From Subtercola sp. Z020 (GTDB lineage Bacteria; Actinomycetota; Actinomycetes; Actinomycetales; Microbacteriaceae), in contig NZ_PSTT01000079.1 of the NCBI RefSeq assembly GCF_002931235.1, positions 1-49,454 of the forward strand: 49,454 bases of DNA, given 5' to 3'. The position numbers were made by a program, and so were the translations under genes. Below the pieces are notes generated by a model. That model was not told the DNA's origin, did not search any database, and worked only from the letters and a program-made list of their open reading frames with translations. Positions 33,856-44,750 of this stretch are shown here, in pieces. Each line of letters opens with the position of its first letter. Positions within the stretch are counted from its first letter, which is position 1.

Positions 33856-33887
33856 AAAAAAAGGGGCCCGATCGGGCCCCTTTTTTT
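33856..33887. terminator. Bidirectional intrinsic terminator
   Basis: A perfect 32-bp palindrome: seven A, GGGGCCC, GATC centre, GGGCCCC, seven T. It serves both the plus-strand EEP gene (stop 33804) and the minus-strand AgpS-type gene, whose stop codon uses its last base. Confidence 0.95.
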
Positions 33888-35557
33888 CAGTCGCGTGCGA
33901 GGATTTTGCCCGGGTTCAGGTTCTTGCCCGGGTCGACCGCCGTGAACATCCCCTGCACCAGGTCTGCACCCGCGACGGAGATGTCCTGCTCCGTCCACTG
34001 CGAGTGCTCCACCCCGACGCTGTGGTGGTGCGAGAGGGTTCCGCCCGAGTCGATGAACGCCTGCTGGATGGCCGACTTCACGATGTCGTACTGCGCGATC
34101 GGGTCGACCCCGTCGTGCGTGAACGCGAACGTGAAGTAGAGGCACGCGCCCGAGTGCATCGAGTGCGAGAGGTGGCACATGATCCAGCCGCTCTCGCCGA
34201 GCGATGCGTAGGCCTTGTTGGCTGCCGCGAAGACGTTGTCGTAGAGCGGCTTGAGGCGTGACCACGGCGCGGAGGTCTCCGACACGTCGGCCGCTGCGCC
34301 CCGGTCGAGCAGGAAGTCGCGGAGGTACGGAGTGTCGAACTTCTTCTGGTCGTAGAGCACGCCCGGGCCCTTGCCGAGGGTGATCGCTCCATGCTTCTTC
34401 AGGATGCTGCCGACCAGGCTCTTCTGGTGCGCGACATTCGCTGCCGTGCCCTCGTAGCCGATGAACGACAGGCACACCTCGTCGAGGTTCCAGCCGCGCT
34501 TCTGCAGGAAGGCGAACAACGCCTTCTGCACCTGGCCGCTGATGCCGTGCGAGGCCTTCGACGTCGAGAACGAGAAGGCCGTCTCACGGGCGTCGGAGAC
34601 GCGGGTGATCGACGGCGCAGCGTCACTCTTCTCGATGTCGTGCATCGCGGCGAGCCCCGAGTCCCAGTCGCGGAACAGGTAGCCGATGATCTCGCGCTTC
34701 TCGGGCAGGCGGTGCACCTGCACGGTGGCCTCGGTAATGACGCCCAGCCGGCCCTCGCTGCCGAGGATGGCCTCCCGCACGCTCGGCCCGGTGGCCGACG
34801 AGGGAATCGGGCGCACGACGAGCAGCTTGCCCGGCTGAACGACCCGCAGCCCCTTGGTGATCTCGGCGATGTCGCCGAACTTGTCGCTCTGCATGCCCGA
34901 GGAGCGCGTCGCGATCCAGCCGCCGAGCGTGGAGTGGGTGAAGCTGTCGGGCTGGTGCCCCATGGTCCAGCCGCGGGCCTGCAGCTGCTCCTCCATGTCG
35001 GGCCCGAGCACACCCGCCTGGATCACGGCGAGACCGGAGTACTCGTCGATCTCGAGCACCCGCGACATCCGCCCCATGTCGAGGGAGATGACGGTGCGGG
35101 TCTCGGTCGGGCGCGGCTCGAGCGAGCCCACGATGTTGCTGCCGCCACCGAACGGGATGATCACGGCATCCGACGCCACGGCCAGGTCGACGATGCGCTG
35201 CACGGCGCTCTCATCGGCCGGGTAGACGACCACATCGGGCACGCGGGGGAACTCGCTGGCGCGAACGCGGATCAGGTCCCGGATGCTCTTGCCGTACGTG
35301 TGCACGACGCGCTCTTCATCGTCGACCGTCGAGTACTCCGGGCCGACGATCGTCGTCAGAGCCTCGAGCAGGTCGGCGGGCGCCTGGGAGCCGGGGATGT
35401 CGAGCTCGGAGAAGTCGACCGGCGGAACCGGCTCACGCCACACATCGATTCCGACGGCATTCACGACGAAAGGCGCGAACCCGGGCTTGTCTTCGTGGTG
35501 GAATCCCACACCCTCGACGCCCCAGCCCCACCATTTCATGTGCTTGACGTCGGTCAT
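33887..35557 (-). CDS. AgpS-type FAD-binding oxidase (alkyl-DHAP synthase-like)
   Basis: A 556-aa flavoprotein of the alkyldihydroxyacetonephosphate synthase type, which swaps the acyl of acyl-DHAP for a fatty alcohol to form an ether bond. The FAD domain shows VVVYPADESAVQRIVDLA, PFGGGSNIVGS and GHQPDSFTHSTLGGWIATRSSG. The cap domain has GYEGT and the active-site HHHSVGVEH near the end, followed by DPGKNLNPGKIL. The HHH motif separates it from lactate/glycolate oxidases. Mycobacterial homologues carry the AgpS name without proof of ether-lipid synthesis. It overlaps the acyltransferase gene upstream by four bases (ATGA). Confidence 0.88.
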   Translation of the reverse strand: MTDVKHMKWWGWGVEGVGFHHEDKPGFAPFVVNAVGIDVWREPVPPVDFSELDIPGSQAPADLLEALTTIVGPEYSTVDDEERVVHTYGKSIRDLIRVRASEFPRVPDVVVYPADESAVQRIVDLAVASDAVIIPFGGGSNIVGSLEPRPTETRTVISLDMGRMSRVLEIDEYSGLAVIQAGVLGPDMEEQLQARGWTMGHQPDSFTHSTLGGWIATRSSGMQSDKFGDIAEITKGLRVVQPGKLLVVRPIPSSATGPSVREAILGSEGRLGVITEATVQVHRLPEKREIIGYLFRDWDSGLAAMHDIEKSDAAPSITRVSDARETAFSFSTSKASHGISGQVQKALFAFLQKRGWNLDEVCLSFIGYEGTAANVAHQKSLVGSILKKHGAITLGKGPGVLYDQKKFDTPYLRDFLLDRGAAADVSETSAPWSRLKPLYDNVFAAANKAYASLGESGWIMCHLSHSMHSGACLYFTFAFTHDGVDPIAQYDIVKSAIQQAFIDSGGTLSHHHSVGVEHSQWTEQDISVAGADLVQGMFTAVDPGKNLNPGKILARD

Positions 35558-36327
35558 GCGGCTCCTTCTCGAGGCTGTTCATCGGAGGCGTCGGGCGTCG
35601 AAGCGCCGGCGGCGGAGCCGATGGTGGGGTGGTTGTGGACGTTGGCGCCGGTGTCGGCGAGGTAGAGGGCGAGCTCAGAGGCGTGCATCTCGCGCACGAC
35701 CCGCTCGATGCGAGCGTTGAACTCGGGCACGCTCTCGCCGTCGGCGGCGATGAGCGGCTCGCCGAACCGCACGCGCACCGGCGGCCGGCCGGGCACGGGC
35801 CAGTTGCGGCCGCGCGGCATGGCCTGCGTCGCGCCGACGAGGGCCATCGGGATGCACGGGATGCCGGCCTTCATGCAGAGCGCAGCCGCGCCGCCCTTGA
35901 ACGGGGCGATGGTGCCGTCTTTCGACCGGGTGCCCTCGGGGAAGACGAGCAGCGGAACGCCGGCCTTCAGCAGCTTTCCGGTGAAGCCGGTGGACTTGGC
36001 GTTCGCGCTGCGGTCGACGGGGAACGCGTTGAAGAAGAGGGCCGTGAGACCCTTTCGCCACCACACGTCGAAGAAGTAGTCGGCCGCGGCGGCCGCGGCG
36101 AGGTAGCGGGAGAGGCGGGAGGGCATCGACCCGAGGATCAGCGGCGCATCCAGATGGCTGGAATGGTTGGCCACCACGATGTAGGGGCCCTTCACGTCTT
36201 TGAGAAGGGAGCGGCCGGTGATCTCGACCCGCACCATCGACCAGATCACGGGCTTCAGCATGAGGCGCTGGGCGACGAACCGCGCGCCGGCCTGGGCCCT
36301 CGATGTGTACCTGTTGCCGAATTCCAC
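35554..36327 (-). CDS. plsC: 1-acyl-sn-glycerol-3-phosphate acyltransferase (PlsC family)
   Basis: A 257-aa membrane-associated acyltransferase. Motif I is ANHSSHLDAP (catalytic His and Asp), motif III VFPEGTRSKDG, and motif IV GIPCIPMALVGA; all are intact. It would acylate a lysophosphatidic acid or its alkyl analogue. The start is GTG 36327 with TACGCT six bases before it, consistent with a leaderless transcript. It overlaps the AgpS-type gene by four bases, so the two proteins are made together, which supports joint action on glycerol-3-phosphate lipids. Confidence 0.9.
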   Translation of the reverse strand: MEFGNRYTSRAQAGARFVAQRLMLKPVIWSMVRVEITGRSLLKDVKGPYIVVANHSSHLDAPLILGSMPSRLSRYLAAAAAADYFFDVWWRKGLTALFFNAFPVDRSANAKSTGFTGKLLKAGVPLLVFPEGTRSKDGTIAPFKGGAAALCMKAGIPCIPMALVGATQAMPRGRNWPVPGRPPVRVRFGEPLIAADGESVPEFNARIERVVREMHASELALYLADTGANVHNHPTIGSAAGASTPDASDEQPREGAA

Positions 36328-36379
36328 CTGCCCAGCGTACTCACTCTGCCTGAGTAACCGAAACGCGCCAGACGATACG

Positions 36380-37150
36380 CTAATCGTTGCGGCTGGAGGA
36401 GATCCTGCCGGAGGCCCAGCGGATGCCGCTGCGCGGCGCGTGCTTGATCACGAACATCAGGAACTTGAACCGGCGTGAAGGGACGGACATGACCTTTCCC
36501 TTCGCAACGTCTGCCAGGCAGGCCGCGACGAGCTCGTCGACATCGACCCAGAGAAAGCCGGGGATGGACGACTCGCGGATGCCCGCCCGCGAGTGGAACT
36601 CCGTCTTCACCCAGCCGGGGCAGAGGGTCGTGACCTGCACGCCCGAGCCCGCGAGCTCGACGGCGAGGCCCTGGCTGTACGAGGCGACCCACGCCTTGAC
36701 GGCGGAGTAGCTGCCCATTGTGATGAACCCGGCCACGCTCGAGACGTTGACGATCGTTCCGCTGCCCCGCGCCCGCATCGTGCGGCCGGCAGCGGCACCG
36801 AGCATCAGCACGGCGCGCACCATCACGTCGAGCGCCTTCTCATGGGGTGTGGTGTCGGCGGCGAGCAGGGAGGTGTGCACACCGAAGCCGGCGTTGTTCA
36901 CCAGCGTGTCGATCGGCGCCGAGGTGTCTTCGAGGCGCGCCGCGACCCGCAGCACGTCGTCGCGGTCGGAGAGGTCGGCCGAGATCGTCTCGACCGCGAT
37001 GCCGTATTCTTTCCGCAGCGATTCTGCCGTCTCGCCGAGTCGCGTCGCGTCGCGCGCGACGATGACGAGATCGTCGCCCCGGTTCGCCAGTGCGCGGGCG
37101 AACGCAGCACCGATTCCCGAGGTGCCGCCTGTGACCATTGCCGTAACCAT
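36380..37150 (-). CDS. Short-chain dehydrogenase/reductase
   Basis: A 256-aa classical SDR. Cofactor motif TGGTSGIGAAFARAL, NNAGFG, and the catalytic Ser (NVSSVAG) with YSAVK are present. The tail (KVMSVPSRRFKFLMFVIKHAP) is hydrophobic-basic, as in SDRs that reduce lipids at membranes (mycobacterial Rv2509-like, 3-oxoacyl or acyl-DHAP reductases). ATG 37150 lies seven bases after TATCGT and no ribosome site is present, so it is probably leaderless; GTG 37159 is an alternative. It is divergent from the ferritin-like gene across a palindrome and 52 bases upstream of plsC. A role in reducing alkyl/acyl-DHAP is inferred. Confidence 0.85.
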   Translation of the reverse strand: MVTAMVTGGTSGIGAAFARALANRGDDLVIVARDATRLGETAESLRKEYGIAVETISADLSDRDDVLRVAARLEDTSAPIDTLVNNAGFGVHTSLLAADTTPHEKALDVMVRAVLMLGAAAGRTMRARGSGTIVNVSSVAGFITMGSYSAVKAWVASYSQGLAVELAGSGVQVTTLCPGWVKTEFHSRAGIRESSIPGFLWVDVDELVAACLADVAKGKVMSVPSRRFKFLMFVIKHAPRSGIRWASGRISSSRND

Positions 37151-37154
37151 GGCA

Positions 37155-37169
37155 ATCACGATACGTGAT
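37155..37169. promoter_or_regulatory. Palindromic operator candidate in the divergent promoter region
   Basis: ATCACG-ATA-CGTGAT is a perfect 6+3+6 palindrome between the SDR and the plus-strand lipid genes. It overlaps the SDR -10 (TATCGT on the minus strand). One regulator could control both directions; no regulator gene lies nearby. Confidence 0.45.
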
Positions 37170-37234
37170 GGCGACGAACCACTGTCGCACGGCCAAAAGA
37201 TTTCTCACCTTTGCAGCACACCCGAAAGGCCACA

Positions 37235-38050
37235 GTGACCGACGACTTCGACATCCGCGCGTACACCCGCACCGCAGCCGGCAGCCACGAGGCGAGCCTG
37301 CCGCTCGCGGCCTTCGCCGAGCATCCACTCGCCCCAGAGACGCTGCGCGCACTCGGCTACCTGCGCGACCTCGAGGACTTCACCATGCACCACATGCGCG
37401 ACGTTCTGGTGACCCCGAGCCACAAGGATGCCCGGCTGACGGCCTTTCTGGCGACCTGGGCCTTCGAGAAGTACTGGATCGCCGACGCCTTCGACCGCAT
37501 CATCGCGGCGCACCCCGACTTCACCCCCGTGGCCAACCGCGCCCGTTCGGGAGTGGTGCGGTTCGCGCGGGAGGCCGTCGACCGGGTCTCGCCCATCGTC
37601 ACGGCCGTGCGGGCCAACCTCATCGGCGAGGACATCATCGCCGGGCATGTGACCCGCGGCTACATCGACGAGCTGGTCAGCCGCGTGTCGTATTCTCGGG
37701 TGCTGGAGAACGACCCGAACGAGGCCCTCGGCGAGGTGCTGACGGGCTTCCAGGTGCTCCGCGACCGGCACCTGCAGTTCTTCGAAGGCGAAACCGTTCG
37801 AAGACTGGAAGAATCGGTCTCGGCTCGCAGGCTCACCCGGTCGTCGCTTCGACGTTCGTGGGTACCGACGGGCACACACGAACAACCGATCCAGGAGACC
37901 CGATTCATGATGAAGTACCTGTTCAGTGATGCCCGCGGGCGCGCTGGAGTCTCCGGGATCGATGGCACCGTCGACCGACTGCCGGGCCTCGGCGGCCTCG
38001 GCCTGCTCGCCAGGGCGGCCAGGCGGTACGGCGTGAAGGCGACCGCGTGA
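37235..38050 (+). CDS. Ferritin-like protein, paralogue with incomplete diiron site
   Basis: A 271-aa helical protein that aligns without gaps over most of its length to the ferritin-like protein at 42739 (e.g. MRDVLVTPSHKD against MRDMLVTPSHRD). Of the six ligands seen in that paralogue, three are retained (first-helix Glu, third-helix Glu, last His). Three are replaced: Glu77 by Lys, His80 by Ile and Glu171 by Arg, in the paralogue's numbering. A catalytic diiron centre is therefore unlikely; a partner or regulatory subunit is possible. GTG 37235 has AAAGG six bases upstream. It overlaps the reductase gene by four bases (GTGA). Confidence 0.75.
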   Translation: MTDDFDIRAYTRTAAGSHEASLPLAAFAEHPLAPETLRALGYLRDLEDFTMHHMRDVLVTPSHKDARLTAFLATWAFEKYWIADAFDRIIAAHPDFTPVANRARSGVVRFAREAVDRVSPIVTAVRANLIGEDIIAGHVTRGYIDELVSRVSYSRVLENDPNEALGEVLTGFQVLRDRHLQFFEGETVRRLEESVSARRLTRSSLRRSWVPTGTHEQPIQETRFMMKYLFSDARGRAGVSGIDGTVDRLPGLGGLGLLARAARRYGVKATA

Positions 38051-40359
38051 GCACGTTCTCGCCCCTCGAGGGCCAGCACATCATGCTCACCGGGGCGACC
38101 GGATTCGTCGGGCAGGCCATTCTCGAGAAGCTGCTGGCCGACTACCCGACGACCCGGATGACGCTGCTGATCAGGCCGAAGGGTTCGCTCACCGGCGAGG
38201 CCCGGCTGAAGAGCCTGCTGCGGAAGCCCGTCTTCTCGAAGTGGCGGGAGCGGGTGGGCCAAGACGAGGTCGACCGCGCGATGGCCGAGCGCATCACGGT
38301 GATCGAGTCGAGCATGGGATCGGTCGCGGGCCTCCCCGCCGACCTCGACGTGCTGATCCACAGCGCGTCGACCGTGTCGTTCGACCCGCCGATCGACGAG
38401 GCGTTCAAGACGAACGTCGGCGGCGCCGTCGGGCTGTACGAAGCGCTGCTCGCCACCGGCAGCGACCCGCACGTCGTGCACGTGTCGACGGCCTACGTCG
38501 GCGGCATCAACAAGGGCACCGCCGTCGAGGCGAGCCTGAAGCACTCCATCCAGTGGCGCGACGAGATGGCCGCCGCGCTGGCCGCCCGCACCACGGTGGA
38601 GGCATCGTCGCGGAGACCGGAGGTGCTGCGCAAGCTCATCGCCGACGCGAAGATCGACAACGGCAAGGTCGGGCCGCACGCTGTCGCGCTGGCCGCCGAG
38701 GCCGGCCGCGTCGAATGGGTCACGAAGCGCCTCGTCGACTACGGTCGCACCCGTGCGCAGAGCGTCGGCTGGGCCGACGTCTACGCCTTCACGAAGTCGA
38801 TGAGCGAGCGTGTCGCCGAAGAGCTCTGGGCCGGCAACGGGCACCGCCTCTCGGTCGTGCGCCCCGCGATCATCGAGAGCGCGCTGCGGCACCCGTTCCC
38901 GGGCTGGATCGACGGCTTCAAGGTGGCCGATCCGCTGATCATCGCGTACGGCCGTGGCCTCGTTCCCGAGTTCCCCGGCCTGCCCGACAGCATCCTCGAC
39001 ATCATCCCCGTCGACATCGTGGTGAACGCGACGCTCGCGGTGGCGGCGAACCCGCCGGCGGTCGACGACCCGAAGTACTACCACCTCTCCTCCGGTGGGC
39101 GGAATCCGCTCACGTTCCGGGAGATCTACGAGAACGTGCTGAAGTACTTTCGCGCGAACCCGATCCCCGACGACCAGCGCGGGCACATCCGCACCCCCTA
39201 CTGGGACTTCCCCGGCGCCCGCGCCATCGCCCGCAGCCTCCGCACCGGCGAGCGCGCGAACCGGCTGCTGCAGCGCACGCTGCTGCGGCTGCCCTCCACG
39301 AAGACCACCCGCACCTTCATGCGACAGGCCTCTGCGCGGCAGACCGACCTCGACCTGCTGCGCGCCTACAGCGACCTCTACCAGAACTACACGCAGGCCG
39401 AGATCATCTACGACGACTCGCGCACGGCGGCCCTGAACGAGACCCTGCCGGCCGGAGCGCACGAGACGTTCGGCTTCGATGCGACGGAGATCGACTGGGA
39501 CCACTACCTGCAGGAGGTGCACTTCCCGGCGGTCACCACGCTCATGCGCACCTTCAGCTCGCGGCCCCGCGCGAAGGCGCAGGTCGAGAAGCCGCTGCCG
39601 CACAATCCGGAGGCCGCCGCCTTCTTCGACCTCGAAGGCACGGTACTCGCGTCGAACATCATCGAGCAGTACCTCTGGGTGCGCCTCGCGAGCCTCGACA
39701 GGTCGAAGTGGCCGCAGGAGCTCGCGAACCTCTTCGGTTCGCTCCCCCGCTACATCGCGGCCGACCGGCGCGACCGCGGCGAGTTCATCCGCACCTTCTA
39801 CCGCCGGTACGAAGGCGTCGACGAACAGGCGCTGAAGGGCCTCATCCACGACACCGTCGGCGACGTGCTGTTGCAGCGCATCCGCCCCGAGGCCGTGCGC
39901 CAGATCCGCAAGCACCGCGAAGCGGGGCACCGCACCATCCTGGTCACGGGCGCGATCGACGTGCTCGTCGAGCCCTTCGTGACGCTCTTCGACGAGGTCG
40001 TGTCGAGCCACATGCACTCCAAAGACGGCATCTGGACGGGCCATCTCTCGAAGCCGCCGCTGGTCGACGAGGCGCGGGCGGCCTGGCTCCGGCTCTACGG
40101 CGCACGCGAGGGCATCGACCTCGCGAAGTCGTACGCCTACGGCGACAGCATCGCCGACCGCTCCTGGCTCGAGCTCGTGGGCAACCCGCAGGCCGTAAAC
40201 CCCGACGCCGCTCTCTTTCAGCACGCCACCCAGAAGCACTGGCGCATCCACCAGTGGAGCGACCACAACCACAGCCGCATCGACACGATCAGCGAACTGC
40301 TGCGCGGCGACATCGTGACCGATTCCACCCCGAGCCCGAAAGACATCACTCATGAGTAG
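38047..40359 (+). CDS. Fatty-acyl reductase fused to HAD-IB phosphatase domain
   Basis: A 770-aa two-domain enzyme. Residues 1 to about 400 are the NAD_binding_4/male-sterility type: MLTGATGFVGQAILEKLL (NADPH loop), HVSTAYVGG and catalytic YAFTK with Tyr246. They are followed by a FAR C-terminal region. From about 520 to 770 lies a HAD-IB phosphatase: FFDLEGTVLASN (nucleophile Asp528, with the usual second Asp replaced by Glu530), VTGAIDVLVEP and YGDSIADRSWLE. Expected chemistry: acyl-CoA or acyl-ACP to fatty alcohol, and dephosphorylation of a lipid phosphate. The start GTG overlaps the preceding stop (GTGA); the end overlaps the LarA-like gene by eight bases. Confidence 0.85.
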   Translation: MSTFSPLEGQHIMLTGATGFVGQAILEKLLADYPTTRMTLLIRPKGSLTGEARLKSLLRKPVFSKWRERVGQDEVDRAMAERITVIESSMGSVAGLPADLDVLIHSASTVSFDPPIDEAFKTNVGGAVGLYEALLATGSDPHVVHVSTAYVGGINKGTAVEASLKHSIQWRDEMAAALAARTTVEASSRRPEVLRKLIADAKIDNGKVGPHAVALAAEAGRVEWVTKRLVDYGRTRAQSVGWADVYAFTKSMSERVAEELWAGNGHRLSVVRPAIIESALRHPFPGWIDGFKVADPLIIAYGRGLVPEFPGLPDSILDIIPVDIVVNATLAVAANPPAVDDPKYYHLSSGGRNPLTFREIYENVLKYFRANPIPDDQRGHIRTPYWDFPGARAIARSLRTGERANRLLQRTLLRLPSTKTTRTFMRQASARQTDLDLLRAYSDLYQNYTQAEIIYDDSRTAALNETLPAGAHETFGFDATEIDWDHYLQEVHFPAVTTLMRTFSSRPRAKAQVEKPLPHNPEAAAFFDLEGTVLASNIIEQYLWVRLASLDRSKWPQELANLFGSLPRYIAADRRDRGEFIRTFYRRYEGVDEQALKGLIHDTVGDVLLQRIRPEAVRQIRKHREAGHRTILVTGAIDVLVEPFVTLFDEVVSSHMHSKDGIWTGHLSKPPLVDEARAAWLRLYGAREGIDLAKSYAYGDSIADRSWLELVGNPQAVNPDAALFQHATQKHWRIHQWSDHNHSRIDTISELLRGDIVTDSTPSPKDITHE

Positions 40360-41908
40360 ACCCGGCTTCGTTCTGAGCGTCGATGCGCAGACCCCGCCCC
40401 TCGTCGTGTTCCAGGGCGAGAAGGTGCTGCTCGAGCGGCTCCCGATCGACGCGAGCGTGCTCTACCCACCCGAGGCACTGCCGGGCATCCATTCGCTCGA
40501 TGCAGCCATCGACGACGCACTCGACACCCCCGTCGACAGCGACCCTCTCAGCGCACTGCTGAAGCGCGGGTCGCGGGTCACGATCGTGTTCGAAGACCTC
40601 ACGCAGCCCGTCACCAGTCGTACGGCTCCGGATGTTCGGCAGCGCGTCATCGAGCACGTACTCGAACGCGCGGCAGCGGCCGGGGTCGACGACGTCGAGC
40701 TCATCGCCGCCACCGGACTGCGCCGGCGACTCACCGCACAGGATCTGCAGCGCGTGCTCGGCGAGCGCATCTACGCCTCGTTCGGCCCCGACCACGTCAG
40801 GAGCCACGACGCCGAGTCGGACTCCCTCGTCACGGTCGGCGAGTTGCCAGACACGACCCCGATCGAGGTGAACGGGCGGGTCGCGTCGAGCGACCTCGTG
40901 ATCTCTGTGCGGCTCGCGACGGCCGTCGGCAACGAGGGGGCGGCAGCGGTCGCGACGAAGCTGATCGGCGCGAAGACGGCCCGGGCCCGTGGGGCGTTCG
41001 CGAACCGGGGCGCCGGCGCAGCCGCCGACACGAACGGCGCCGACGCCTTCGACGGCCTGGTCGACACCATCGGCGACAAGGCGCAGGTCTTCACCATCGA
41101 CGTGACCCTCACGCCCGAACCCACCGGCCCCGCCTCGGCGTTCCTCAGCAAGCGCGAGCGGGAGTGGAGCCTCACCGACCGCGCCCTCTCCGCCGGGCTG
41201 CAGGCCGCCACGCGCATCCTGCCGTCGCGCGCCCGCGTGGGCCTCGCCCAGGTCTCGGGCGTCGGCTACGGCGTCACCTCTGTGGTCGCCGGCAAGCCGA
41301 GCTCCGTGCATCCGCTCACCGAGAGTTTTCTCACCCAGCAGCAGGTCGGCCAGTTCGACAGCCCGGCCGATGTGGCCCTGTTCGGCATCCCGAACCCCGG
41401 TTCGATCGGATCGAGCCTCAACCCGGTCACGGCCGCGGCGCTCGGTCTCGGCCAGATCTTCAACGGGTCGACCGCGGAACCTGTCGTTCGGGCGGGCGGA
41501 ACCGCGATCTTCTACCACCCGCTCACACCGTGGTTCCACCCGCTGCACGACCCCGCGTACATCGACTTCTTCGCCGAGGTGCTCACGAAGACCACAGACC
41601 CGGCCGTGATCTCGGCGGAGTACGAGGAGAAGTTCGCGGCCGACCCCTGGTACCGCCACGTGTACCAGACGAGCTTCGCGAACCACGCGCTGCACCCCTT
41701 CCACGCCTGGTACTCGGCGGCTCCCGCCATCGACCATCTCGGCGAGGTCATCTTCGTGGGCGGCGACCACGAAGCGACCAGGCGGCTCGGCTTCAAGTCG
41801 GCGACCACCCTCGCCGACGCTCTCGAGATGGCCTCGGACTCGGTCGGGCTCACCCCGTCGATCACCTACGTACACGGTGCGCCGGTGAGCGTCCCAGAGG
41901 TCAGCTGA
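40352..41908 (+). CDS. LarA-fold (DUF2088) protein without the lactate racemase site
   Basis: A 518-aa protein. The N-half matches the LarA N-domain pattern: VTIVFEDLTQPV in the place of the V-x-D-x-TRP strand, then a helix and VDDVELIAATGLRRRLTAQDLQRVLG. In lactate racemase the corresponding GTHR carries a nickel-pincer histidine; here it is GLRR, and the later Lys/His ligands are not recognisable. Lactate racemisation is thus unlikely. The C-half (NPGSIGSSLNPVTAAALG, GGTAIFYHPLTPWFHPLHDP) is well ordered, suggesting another enzymatic or binding role. It overlaps both neighbours (8 and 1 bp), so it belongs to the lipid operon. Confidence 0.72.
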   Translation: MSRPGFVLSVDAQTPPLVVFQGEKVLLERLPIDASVLYPPEALPGIHSLDAAIDDALDTPVDSDPLSALLKRGSRVTIVFEDLTQPVTSRTAPDVRQRVIEHVLERAAAAGVDDVELIAATGLRRRLTAQDLQRVLGERIYASFGPDHVRSHDAESDSLVTVGELPDTTPIEVNGRVASSDLVISVRLATAVGNEGAAAVATKLIGAKTARARGAFANRGAGAAADTNGADAFDGLVDTIGDKAQVFTIDVTLTPEPTGPASAFLSKREREWSLTDRALSAGLQAATRILPSRARVGLAQVSGVGYGVTSVVAGKPSSVHPLTESFLTQQQVGQFDSPADVALFGIPNPGSIGSSLNPVTAAALGLGQIFNGSTAEPVVRAGGTAIFYHPLTPWFHPLHDPAYIDFFAEVLTKTTDPAVISAEYEEKFAADPWYRHVYQTSFANHALHPFHAWYSAAPAIDHLGEVIFVGGDHEATRRLGFKSATTLADALEMASDSVGLTPSITYVHGAPVSVPEVS

Positions 41909-42600
41909 TGTCCCGCCTCGCGGTGCGCCTCTCTGTCACGGCCCAGTCGTACGGTCTCGAGCACGTCGCCGAGACGAAGGGCCCGTACATCTTCGTCTCG
42001 AACCACCCCAGCGAGCTCGACGAGGCACTGGTGCGGGATGCCCTGCGGCACCTGAGCCCGCGACTGGTGACGGTCGCGGTGGAGCCCCGCCGCGGCATCC
42101 GGGGCCTCGTCGACCAGGCGCTGAGCCTGCGCTCGGCGTCGCGACTGGCGGTGCTGCTCGCGAGTGGAACCAGTGTGCTGCTCTTCGCCGAGAAGACCCG
42201 CACCGACGACGGATCGCTCGCGCAGCTCGATCTCGGGGCCGCTCTGCTCGGCATCCGCACCGGCGCGCCCCTCGTGCCGGTCTCGATCGTCGGGAGCTAC
42301 CGCGCGCTGCCACCGTGGCGAACGACCGTCGAACCCGGCAGGCCCCGCGTTCAGGTGCTGTTCGGCCGACCAATCCGCGCGGGGGTCGGCGACGAACCCT
42401 CCGCAGTGACCGACGAGCTCGCCGCGGCGATCTCCACCGGGCTGGCCGAGGAGTCTCGCGGCTGGTACGGCGCGAGGCGGTCGCAGGCCGACGGAGCGCA
42501 TGCTCCCGAAACCGCTGCCGGAGGCGAGGCCGGCTGGCGGAAGATCTGGAAGGCGACAGCAACGCCGACCAGCCCCAGCAGGCGCAGGGTGTGGCAGTGA
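41908..42600 (+). CDS. PlsC-like acyltransferase, divergent motif III
   Basis: A 230-aa member of the lysophospholipid acyltransferase fold. Motif I is VSNHPSELDEAL with His and Asp kept; motif III reads LFAEKTRTDDG instead of FPEGTRS, with Pro and Gly lost but Glu and Arg kept; motif IV is GAPLVPVSIVGS. It may use an unusual acceptor or donor, or be impaired. The tail beyond residue 190 is Ala/Gly-rich then basic. ATG 41908 lies in a TGATG junction with the LarA-like gene. It is the last gene of the four-gene overlapping block. Confidence 0.8.
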   Translation: MSRLAVRLSVTAQSYGLEHVAETKGPYIFVSNHPSELDEALVRDALRHLSPRLVTVAVEPRRGIRGLVDQALSLRSASRLAVLLASGTSVLLFAEKTRTDDGSLAQLDLGAALLGIRTGAPLVPVSIVGSYRALPPWRTTVEPGRPRVQVLFGRPIRAGVGDEPSAVTDELAAAISTGLAEESRGWYGARRSQADGAHAPETAAGGEAGWRKIWKATATPTSPSRRRVWQ

Positions 42601-42610
42601 ACGCCTGTGC

Positions 42611-42635
42611 AATTTACCTGCTGAGGCAGTAAATT
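42611..42635. promoter_or_regulatory. A/T-flanked hairpin before the second ferritin-like gene
   Basis: AATTTA(c)CTGC-TGAG-GCAGTAAATT forms a 10-bp stem with one bulged base, 10 bases after the plsC-like stop. It is conspicuously A/T-rich for this DNA. It may end the preceding transcript or act as an operator for the gene at 42739; a purine-rich AGGAGG follows at about 42694. Confidence 0.45.
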
Positions 42636-42738
42636 CCACATTCACCCAGCACAATGGTTACACCCGACAGTCAGAACTTGGCATTTCAGAAACAGGAGGA
42701 TGAGGCACGGCTCTCCCGCGAGCCGGTCTCAAGCGCCC

Positions 42739-43536
42739 ATGGCCTTCGATATCGACAACTACACGAAGACGTCGAAGAACGTCGCCTGGGAAGACCTCGA
42801 TTTCGAGACGTTCCGCAGCAACCCGCTGCCTCCTGACACGCTGCGTGTCATCCGCTACATGGCGGATGTCGAGTACCACACGGTCTGCTACATGCGCGAC
42901 ATGCTCGTGACGCCGTCGCACCGCGACAAAGACGTGACCGGCTTCATGACGATGTGGAACCGCGAAGAGTTCTGGCACGGCGAGGCGCTGGCCGATGTGC
43001 TGCGCATGCACGACATCGAGCTCGAGTTCGACGAGCTGAAGTCGAAGCGCCTGAAGCTCGGCTGGAAAGACCGGCTCGACCCGGTGAAGCAGTCGGTTCT
43101 CTCGAACCTGGTCGGCAAGGACTTCATCGCCGTGCACATGATTTGGGGTGCCGCGAACGAGTGGTCTGCCGTCGCCGCGTACAAGCGCCTCGCTGAGATC
43201 GAGGGTCACCCGGTGCTCGCCGAACTGCTGAAGCGCATCGCGATGCAGGAGGCCAGGCACGTCGCCTTCTACGCAACGCAGGCGCGCGAACGCCTCGGCA
43301 AGAGCGTCATCGCTCAGAAGTTCGCCCGCTTCGCCCTCGGCAAGTTCTGGGGCCCGGTCGGCTCGACGATCATGGACCAGACCGAGGTCAAGCACGTGAT
43401 GGGTCACATCTTCGGCGGCATCGACGGGCGCAAGGCCATCAACGCCATCGACGCGCACATCGCGAAGATGCCCGGTCTCTCCGGCCTGACGATCGTCGCC
43501 GACTCGCTCGACGGTCACGGCATCGCGGCGGTCTGA
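42739..43536 (+). CDS. Ferritin-like diiron protein, intact ligand set
   Basis: A 265-aa four-helix protein. Six likely iron ligands appear as two halves: Glu45 (ADVEYH) and Glu77/His80 (EEFWH), then Glu141 (ANEWSA) and Glu171/His174 (EARH). The two ExxH motifs are the diiron oxidase hallmark of acyl-ACP desaturases and AurF-type oxygenases. The start MAFDIDNYT matches the paralogue at 37235. It lacks a close ribosome site; ATG 42700 directly after AGGAGG is the alternative. No signal or membrane segment. It probably oxidises or desaturates a lipid substrate made by the neighbouring genes; that is inference. Confidence 0.8.
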   Translation: MAFDIDNYTKTSKNVAWEDLDFETFRSNPLPPDTLRVIRYMADVEYHTVCYMRDMLVTPSHRDKDVTGFMTMWNREEFWHGEALADVLRMHDIELEFDELKSKRLKLGWKDRLDPVKQSVLSNLVGKDFIAVHMIWGAANEWSAVAAYKRLAEIEGHPVLAELLKRIAMQEARHVAFYATQARERLGKSVIAQKFARFALGKFWGPVGSTIMDQTEVKHVMGHIFGGIDGRKAINAIDAHIAKMPGLSGLTIVADSLDGHGIAAV

Positions 43537-43556
43537 GCCGTGAGCGCGGCGGCGCG

Positions 43557-44750
43557 GTGAGCGGGGTCGGGGGCGCCGCGGGGGCTGGTGGCGAGGGTGC
43601 TGAGGGTGGCGCTGCTGGCGGCGGCGCTGCTGACGACGGGTCTTCCGGCTCGGCCGACCTGCCACGGGCCGCGATCGTCTACAACCCGACCAAGGTCAAC
43701 ATCCGGCGCCTGCGCGGCATGGTGGCCGCGATGGAGGCCGAGAAGGCGTGGGGCCCCTCGCTCTGGGCCGCGACCACCGTCGACGATCCCGGTGAGGGGC
43801 AGGCGCGGCGTCTGCTCGCCGCCTCCCCCGCGGTCATCATCGCGGCGGGCGGCGACGGCACCGTGAGCGCGGTCGCCCAGGCGCTGCTGAGCCAGCCCGT
43901 GCCGCTCGGCATCCTGCCCTCTGGCACCACCAATCTCTTCGCGCGGGCACTCGGGCTTCCTCTGGGCGTGATCGGCCTGCCGTTCGTCAACGCGCGCCGG
44001 GCCCTTCGGGCCGCCTTCAGCGACGTCGTTCGCACCGTCGATGTCGGCCGAGTGGATGCCCTGCTCGAGAACGGCGCGACCCTCAGCCGCGCGTTCACCG
44101 TCATGGCCGGCATGGGTGTGGACGCCCAGATGGTGGTGAACACCTCGTCGAAGGGCAAGGAGACGCTCGGCTGGACCGGGTACGTCGGGGCGATCCTCGA
44201 ATCCCTGGTGCGCAACCGGCGCTTCGACCTGGCGTTCAGCCTCGACGGTGTCGCGCTGCCCGAGACGCCGGCTCACACGATCGTGCTCGGCAATGCGGGC
44301 GTGCTGCCGGCGGGCATCCGGATGATCCCCGGCGCCTCGATCGACGACGGCGAGCTCGACGTGGTGGTGCTCCGCCCCCTCGGTGCGGGCGAGTGGGTGC
44401 GGGCGATGCAGTGGTTCTGGCGCACCAACACGGCGTACCTGCCGCGGAGGCCGGCGACACGCGCTGCGGCCGACGGCTCGGCCCCTGTGGTCAACGCGGC
44501 GGTCTGGCACGCACGAGGTGGTGCTGTGACGCTGACCGTCGGTGTGCCGCAGGACTTCGAGATCGACGGCGAGTACCTCGGCCGCGTGGTGTCGGCGTCG
44601 GCCTGGATCGAGGCGGGCGCGCTGCGCGTGCGCGGGTCGGCCGTGCCGCCCGCAGGCGCTGCCGCGCCCGCCGCGCTGTCTGCCGCCGATGCTGCTGCCT
44701 CCGCTGACGCTGACGCATCCAGCGCCGACGCCGACGCCGCGAACGCTTGA
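43557..44750 (+). CDS. Diacylglycerol/lipid kinase family protein (DAGKc)
   Basis: A 397-aa lipid kinase of the YegS/DgkB type. The nucleotide loop is IIAAGGDGTVSA (GGDGT at 98-102), followed by GILPSGTTNLFARALGLP and the substrate-domain segment MAGMGVDAQMV. It phosphorylates diacylglycerol, ceramide-like or similar neutral lipids. The first 36 residues are Gly/Ala-rich and the last 35 Ala/Asp/Ser-rich, both outside the fold. GTG 43557 follows the ferritin-like stop by 20 bases, so they may be one operon. It could return a dephosphorylated alkyl- or diacylglycerol to the phospholipid pool. Confidence 0.87.
   Translation: MSGVGGAAGAGGEGAEGGAAGGGAADDGSSGSADLPRAAIVYNPTKVNIRRLRGMVAAMEAEKAWGPSLWAATTVDDPGEGQARRLLAASPAVIIAAGGDGTVSAVAQALLSQPVPLGILPSGTTNLFARALGLPLGVIGLPFVNARRALRAAFSDVVRTVDVGRVDALLENGATLSRAFTVMAGMGVDAQMVVNTSSKGKETLGWTGYVGAILESLVRNRRFDLAFSLDGVALPETPAHTIVLGNAGVLPAGIRMIPGASIDDGELDVVVLRPLGAGEWVRAMQWFWRTNTAYLPRRPATRAAADGSAPVVNAAVWHARGGAVTLTVGVPQDFEIDGEYLGRVVSASAWIEAGALRVRGSAVPPAGAAAPAALSAADAAASADADASSADADAANA

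Follow-up and report, generated by a model that had tools for sequence, protein, structure and literature searches.

What does the divergent gene block at positions 33,887 to 44,750 of contig NZ_PSTT01000079.1 from Subtercola sp. Z020 make, and which of its genes are needed to make it? The window analysed here is the whole stretch of 49,454 nucleotides of that contig, and the original prediction, made from the letters of this window, had read the block as a complete ether-lipid pathway whose two ferritin-like proteins, both taken for diiron proteins, may introduce a vinyl-ether double bond or carry out another oxidation. We find that the conserved core of the block consists of six genes, agpS-plsC1-sdr on one strand and fer1-FAR/HAD-fer2 on the other. 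We propose, with a probability of roughly 0.6, that these six genes constitute an oxygen-dependent plasmalogen pathway in which the ferritin-like proteins Fer2 and Fer1 form the vinyl-ether bond instead of CarF. No account of such a cluster was found in the literature searched, a search outside which most subscription papers lay.

Results

Conservation of the gene cassette

All genes named by the original prediction were recovered in the window by open reading frame and domain searches, the domain matches being FAD_binding_4/FAD-oxidase_C, PlsC, SDR, NAD_binding_4 plus HAD, Lar_N, PlsC and DAGK, and the predicted overlaps of 4, 8 and 1 bp on the plus strand are exact. The gene boundaries leave an intergenic region at 37160..37234 (no strand assigned) that separates the two divergent gene sets. 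FAR/HAD was matched in 12/12 Subtercola genomes, and all nine genes of the block are collinear in each of the seven Subtercola loci with long flanks (L005-L011). Beyond this genus, the six-gene arrangement is complete in 30 of the 40 fetched Microbacteriaceae loci (24 genera), including two in which agpS was matched in two pieces (L065 and L085; in L065 plsC1 likewise).

Among 299 Microbacteriaceae genomes strong matches to fer2, agpS and FAR were found in 93, 86 and 87, respectively; 85 genomes hold all three and 205 have neither fer2 nor agpS. The co-occurrence of fer2 and agpS gives a Fisher p of about 5e-64, a value that treats the genomes as independent despite their kinship. These counts leave out six genomes of genus g44 whose fer2 matches are weak (E 3.8e-6 to 9.2e-10) and do not take as positives six genomes with AgpS matches of 33-38%. 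Each of the 93 genomes has two or three fer2 matches, the second of which is usually fer1 in the fetched loci. Independent occurrence of the genes in relatives, which the original prediction had named as the outcome that would speak against it, is thus the exception, since 85 of the 93 fer2 genomes also carry agpS and FAR. In one further genome (G111) fer2 is accompanied by FAR, which starts 2.2 kb from the contig start, and agpS may be cut off.

The incomplete loci among the 40 are of several kinds. The fer pair stands alone in four (L068, L081, L088 and L102); in L067, L092 and L096 the set is broken up, agpS and FAR lying at a greater distance or in another part of the genome; in L100 agpS lies about 14 kb away, beyond the fetched stretch; L095 is a second fer2 copy and L099 a contig end. 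The genes beside stand-alone or split fer pairs are unrelated, for example NusA-type, peptidyl-tRNA hydrolase and DNA ligase genes. The converse arrangement is found in genome G105 (85% complete), where agpS-plsC1-sdr and an adjacent FAR occur without any fer match (L103, G105:C165:12000-30000). The fer pair is therefore separable from the alkyl-ether genes, and G105 is a natural candidate, judging by its gene content, for a producer of alkyl-ether lipids that lack the vinyl bond.

All six core genes, arranged as in the family, are also present on a linear 2.35-Mb plasmid of Streptomyces sp. NBC_01450 (L181, NZ_CP109481.1 1067628-1085832), a megaplasmid that is predicted to be mobilizable. This shows that the cassette can move as a unit. 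No match to LarA, plsC2 or the kinase was found beside this copy in the 18 kb read.

Lipids of Subtercola and the known vinyl-ether enzymes

Dimethyl acetals (DMAs), which indicate plasmalogens (PMC7472656), have been reported as i-16:0, a-15:0 and a-17:0 in S. vilae DB165, S. boreus, S. frigoramans and S. lobariae, in all four of which the same three structures are also found as acyl chains; the i-16:0 DMA amounts to 17.0% in DB165 (PMC5945732). The DMAs of S. boreus and S. frigoramans were confirmed by gas chromatography-mass spectrometry (PMC7472656). The contig of DB165 itself (L007) carries all nine genes. The S. boreus genomes compared here are those of P27444, P27479 and P27979, the lipids having been measured in DSM 13056. 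In other genera, a 15:0 anteiso aldehyde/DMA is given for Frigoribacterium adelgis D8 and F. faeni and not for two other Frigoribacterium species (PMC12823222), a DMA is reported for Kineococcus rubinsiae (PMC7472656), and Agreia is described as low in DMAs and Frondihabitans is said to be without them (PMC5945732).

Two routes of vinyl-ether synthesis are described, an aerobic one by CarF/TMEM189 and an anaerobic one by PlsA/PlsR (PMC9131029, PMC9702350). The CarF model PF10520 matched 0/12 Subtercola genomes and 0/299 genomes of the family; 14 control genomes were unmatched as well, but across the phylum the model finds matches in 13 of 326 genomes, 12 of which belong to a single family (f19, L171-L180). 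As PF10520 thus works within the phylum, we reject a CarF encoded elsewhere in the Subtercola genome. The HGD-D domain (PF06050), which we take to be part of PlsA, has no match in 9 of the 12 Subtercola genomes, including S. vilae, S. lobariae and three S. boreus, and in the other three the matches lie in separate open frames of 228-621 amino acids. The anaerobic PlsA route is accordingly rejected as well, given the lack of an HGD-D match in S. vilae, S. lobariae and S. boreus, with PlsR not searched. The genome of DB165 (G011) matches neither PF10520 nor PF06050.

Probable enzymes of ether-lipid synthesis

The agpS gene (33887..35557, minus strand) overlaps plsC1 by 4 bp and codes for a homologue of alkyl-dihydroxyacetone phosphate (alkyl-DHAP) synthase, an assignment to which both family and active site point. 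Among solved proteins it scores highest with alkyl-DHAP synthases (2uuu, 382 bits; 4bby, 287 bits). The equivalents of Arg419, Arg515, Tyr578 and His615-617, which we take to be the active-site residues of alkyl-DHAP synthase, are invariant in 32/32 aligned rows; residue numbers were counted on the alignment, for which 33 sequences were extracted, two dropped by length and the window sequence added. A function as D-lactate or glycolate oxidase was rejected, D-lactate dehydrogenase scoring 68 bits against 382 for ADPS.

On the same strand, plsC1 (35554..36327) codes for a PlsC-type acyltransferase (PF01553, 81 bits) and candidate DHAP acyltransferase, with the HX4D string in 32 and the PEGTR string in 22 of 33 extracted sequences, each pattern being counted anywhere in the sequence. 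The sdr gene (36380..37159, minus strand) codes for a short-chain dehydrogenase (SDR; PF00106, 139 bits) with the glycine motif in 33/34 and a YxxxK string in 34/34 sequences, which makes it a candidate alkyl-DHAP reductase.

The FAR/HAD fusion (38047..40359, plus strand) combines a fatty acyl reductase (PF07993, 152 bits) with a HAD-IB domain (PF12710, 115 bits) and is 92-93% identical to the copies in the three S. boreus loci. Residues 7-496 align with the nearest solved protein, the fatty acyl-CoA reductase 7eoz (E 5.6e-44), the cofactor and catalytic columns GxxGxxG and YxxxK are invariant in 36/36 rows, and the C-terminal Sterile domain scores 30.2 bits, below the PF03015 cut-off of 35.4. 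Motif I of HAD-IB phosphatases reads DxDxT, its second Asp serving as general acid. In the fusion (window residues 528-532) this acid position, at +2, is taken by an invariant Glu, giving DxE rather than DxD in 36/36 rows, and the Lys of motif III is present in 12/36, with the residues of motif IV kept in all 36. Phosphatase activity of the HAD domain is therefore uncertain.

The ferritin-like proteins Fer1 and Fer2

The fer2 gene (42739..43536, plus strand; most likely start ATG 42739, where 37 of 39 aligned rows have Met) codes for a diiron ferritin-like protein. The ligand pattern of soluble diiron acyl-ACP (acyl carrier protein) desaturases is E/ExxH/E/ExxH, and this set is found in 41/41 Fer2 rows, five matches with a stop inside the aligned stretch having been left out. 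The fer1 gene (37235..38050, plus strand) most likely starts with GTG at 37235, the open reading frame from 37165 being in a different frame; fer1 and fer2 rows outside 230-320 amino acids were left out of the alignment used for the fer2 start. Its product is, as far as the alignment tells, a degenerate paralogue of Fer2 that has lost metal ligands: the second Glu is replaced by Lys, Arg or Ala in 44/44 rows, the first His by Ile, Met, Leu or Val in 43/44 and the Glu of the second ExxH by Lys or Arg in 39/44, with the first Glu (42/44), the third Glu (32/44, and Asp in 7) and the last His (36/44) mostly retained. The prediction of two diiron proteins thus fits the ligands of Fer2 but not those of Fer1.

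Fer2 reaches 16.9 bits with PF03405 (FA_desaturase_2) against a cut-off of 22.7, a Rubrerythrin match is likewise weak and below cut-off, and fer1 has no Pfam or NCBIfam match. Confident AlphaFold2 models were obtained for Fer1 (pLDDT 91.0, pTM 0.88) and Fer2 (pLDDT 86.6, pTM 0.87). The best PDB match of the Fer2 model in Foldseek is the acyl-ACP desaturase 7t63 (E 6.2e-4, TM 0.60), and 1oq4 reaches a TM of 0.65; in the fold search with Fer1 no hit reached E 0.001.

Discussion

The proposed pathway

We have little doubt that the cassette makes ether lipids, as the original prediction had suggested; the conserved AgpS active site and the reported DMAs of Subtercola both fit. Plasmalogens are its likely product. 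We envisage that PlsC1 would acylate DHAP, that FAR would reduce branched acyl thioesters to fatty alcohol, a role assigned at the level of its family only, and that AgpS would exchange the acyl group for this alcohol to give alkyl-DHAP. The SDR would convert alkyl-DHAP to 1-alkyl-glycerol-3-phosphate, from which an ordinary PlsC and phospholipid enzymes may complete the plasmanyl lipid; two more PlsC-type proteins are encoded elsewhere in the genome. Finally Fer2, together with the degenerate Fer1, would use O2 and electrons to remove two hydrogens beside the ether oxygen and so create the vinyl-ether bond, the step that would correspond to the one for which myxobacteria and animals use CarF/TMEM189, an unrelated membrane protein.

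For this last step we lean, with some reserve, towards Fer2 with Fer1 as the candidate vinyl-ether desaturase. The earlier suggestion that the diiron proteins introduce the bond agrees with the DMAs, with the lack of a CarF match and with the desaturase-like model of Fer2, but of the two proteins only Fer2 keeps its ligands. That the pair represents a second, unrelated aerobic solution to vinyl-ether formation, a soluble heteromer of diiron Fer2 and metal-less Fer1 carried in a mobile and self-sufficient six-gene cassette, appears to us a shade better than an even chance.

A number of observations weigh against an oxygen-dependent plasmalogen pathway built on this pair. On the side of the lipids, the DMA reports concern other Subtercola species than the strain of the window, and phenotype and genotype are paired in one genus only. 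The DMAs of DB165 were named by MIDI peaks, and its a-15:0 chain makes up 50% of the acids but 3.2% as DMA, which are unlike proportions (PMC5945732). MIDI has called an a-15:0 DMA peak 14:0 2-OH, and DMAs and hydroxy acids have been misnamed in both directions, the opposite error being described for Selenomonadales (PMC7472656). DMAs may, moreover, derive from free aldehydes. On the side of the proteins, the domain search found no electron-donor gene in the block, and the Foldseek support for Fer2 is moderate, with a single match at E <=0.001, TM values of 0.60-0.65 and about 14% identity; R2-like oxidases rank next after the desaturases in the same list. In the profile search the top PDB match of Fer2 is a designed helix bundle, and mycobacterial DesA2 (1za0) follows at E 0.005. 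On the side of distribution, fer2 occurs without agpS or FAR in 7 of the 93 genomes (genera g25, g56 and g76), and in the three pair-only loci included in the alignment (L068, L081 and L088) the ligands of Fer2 are intact. Fer2-like proteins are present in other actinobacterial families too, where 17 fetched stretches with their genes, some of them short, hold no agpS or FAR match.

Alternative readings

Should the cassette make saturated alkyl-ether lipids only, Fer1 and Fer2 would oxidise lipid chains in another way, for instance by acyl desaturation, and the DMAs would be the work of another enzyme. We regard this as unlikely, but it survives better than any other alternative. The acyl desaturases closest to the Fer2 model suit it, as do the seven genomes with the pair and without agpS and FAR, and the Fer2-like proteins that occur without the cassette in other families; the Fer2 family thus reaches beyond the cassette and may act on other substrates. 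AgpS-type matches at E 1e-30 or better are present in 6 of 15 whole genomes with Fer2-like genes outside the family, and nine genes near Fer2-like genes outside Microbacteriaceae include no recurring family (L139:10101-11264 being the Fer2-like gene itself). In one of the pair-only genomes (G145) an AgpS relative of 35% is encoded elsewhere, and the whole-genome search at E 1e-30 found no AgpS relative in the other six.

Several findings speak against saturated ethers as the sole product. The reported DMAs of Subtercola would need an enzyme in a genus for which the otherwise working CarF model gives no match; the large majority of fer2 genomes hold the ether genes; and fer1 and fer2 flank FAR in all 30 complete loci. 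The four fetched pair-only loci, from four of the seven pair-only genomes, cluster together among cassette carriers in the fer1 tree, which suggests that the pair-only state is derived, but the fer2 part of the phylogeny is at odds with this for L088, which clusters there with the carriers L063, L073 and L098 instead. The phylogeny was built with FastTree and rooted at the midpoint, and its branching order alone was used.

The plasmalogen reading assigns no step to the genes between FAR/HAD and fer2 or to the one behind fer2. These are the LarA-type gene (40352..41908, plus strand), plsC2 (41908..42600, plus strand) for a second, weaker PlsC-type protein (PF01553, 38 bits), and, beside the block, a gene for a YegS/DAGK-type lipid kinase (43557..44750, plus strand; PF00781, 62 bits). 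The fuller pathway first envisaged, in which LarA, the second PlsC, the HAD phosphatase and the lipid kinase are required steps, is in our view very unlikely. It draws on the tight gene overlaps in the window and on a contig of an Actinobacteria bacterium, but outside Subtercola the LarA and plsC2 genes lie between FAR and fer2 in only two of the 40 fetched loci (L072 and L091, both of genus g33) and were not found beside the Streptomyces copy, so that neither belongs to the core. Among the compared loci, those of Subtercola and g33 are the only ones in which the kinase follows fer2, and its place in the block is not conserved. The departures from HAD motifs I and III add to this, as does LarC, which was found in 0/12 Subtercola genomes and in 6/14 controls, with LarB and LarE not searched for; LarA therefore does not look core. 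The three genes would then be accessory additions in Subtercola and g33.

The LarA-type protein itself scores 489.6 bits with NF052592, under the cut-off of 740, and in the window and in 5/5 extracted sequences an Arg replaces a His of the solved LarA-type proteins, at what we presume to be a position of the catalytic His pair of LarA. Judging by its residues and the LarC result, it is unlikely to be a nickel-pincer enzyme. A 2-hydroxy-fatty-acid route with LarA was rejected as part of the core because of the distribution of the gene, the Arg for His and the absence of LarC matches, and the main text of the LarA paper PMC11770544 contains neither the word 'lipid' nor 'fatty acid'. On the contig mentioned above (L012, 1-4712) a LarA-type gene (44%) and a PlsC gene stand in a row with the terminal part of a FAR/HAD gene, and the FAR-LarA-PlsC association thus exists elsewhere too.

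Least probable of all is that FAR yields an aldehyde which the fer pair, acting as an aldehyde-deformylating oxygenase, turns into hydrocarbons, the ether genes being a separate use of aldehydes or alcohols: in the complete loci FAR does have fer1 on one side and fer2 on the other, and aldehyde-deformylating proteins do appear low in the lists (6d9f at rank 50, E 0.081, for Fer2; 4z5s at rank 42, E 1.9, for Fer1), but desaturases outrank 6d9f, the solved protein closest to FAR is a fatty acyl-CoA reductase, seven genomes carry the pair but lack FAR, G105 carries FAR but lacks the pair, and the DMAs would be left unexplained.

Implications

If the six genes do form an oxygen-dependent plasmalogen pathway of this kind, aerobic plasmalogens would no longer be almost exclusive to myxobacteria but common among Microbacteriaceae. 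Should Fer2 be the desaturase, evolution would have arrived at the vinyl-ether bond twice, the second time with a soluble scaffold; the cassette would then also serve as a genomic marker of organisms that make plasmalogens aerobically and as a means of producing these lipids in ordinary laboratory hosts. The animal enzyme for this bond was identified only in 2019-2020 (PMC9131029, PMC9702350), and a soluble Fer2 would be easier to purify and study than the membrane-bound CarF.

Comparison with known systems

The closest aerobic system is that of Myxococcus xanthus, where CarF acts alongside the elb operon and MXAN_1676-1674, a FAR1-like domain is part of ElbD, and the HAD gene elbB shares the operon with elbD (PMC9131029). 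Colony colour in the light serves in M. xanthus as a readout of CarF function, and according to the same source few bacteria have CarF, most of them myxobacteria and the remainder some Leptospira and Alphaproteobacteria (PMC9131029). In Subtercola, by contrast, the set is gathered in a single divergent cassette, the fusion partner of FAR is HAD instead of acyl-CoA synthetase, ACP and acyltransferase domains, and, with no CarF match, a ferritin-like pair takes the place of CarF in the gene set. With the animal pathway (FAR1, GNPAT, AGPS, alkyl-DHAP reductase and TMEM189/PEDS1) the cassette would be expected to share the same activities, and the active-site residues of AgpS are common to both; it differs in that a TMEM189-type (PF10520) match is missing and the last step is proposed for a soluble diiron pair. 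The anaerobic PlsA/PlsR pathway leads to the same class of product, but it reduces the sn-1 acyl ester directly and DHAP is no precursor, unlike in the cassette (PMC9702350). Finally, Fer2 shares its ligand set with the soluble acyl-ACP desaturases (PF03405, such as the castor stearoyl-ACP desaturase), which head the list of its structural matches, and it is set apart from them by a score under the Pfam cut-off, an identity of about 14% and its place beside a degenerate paralogue.

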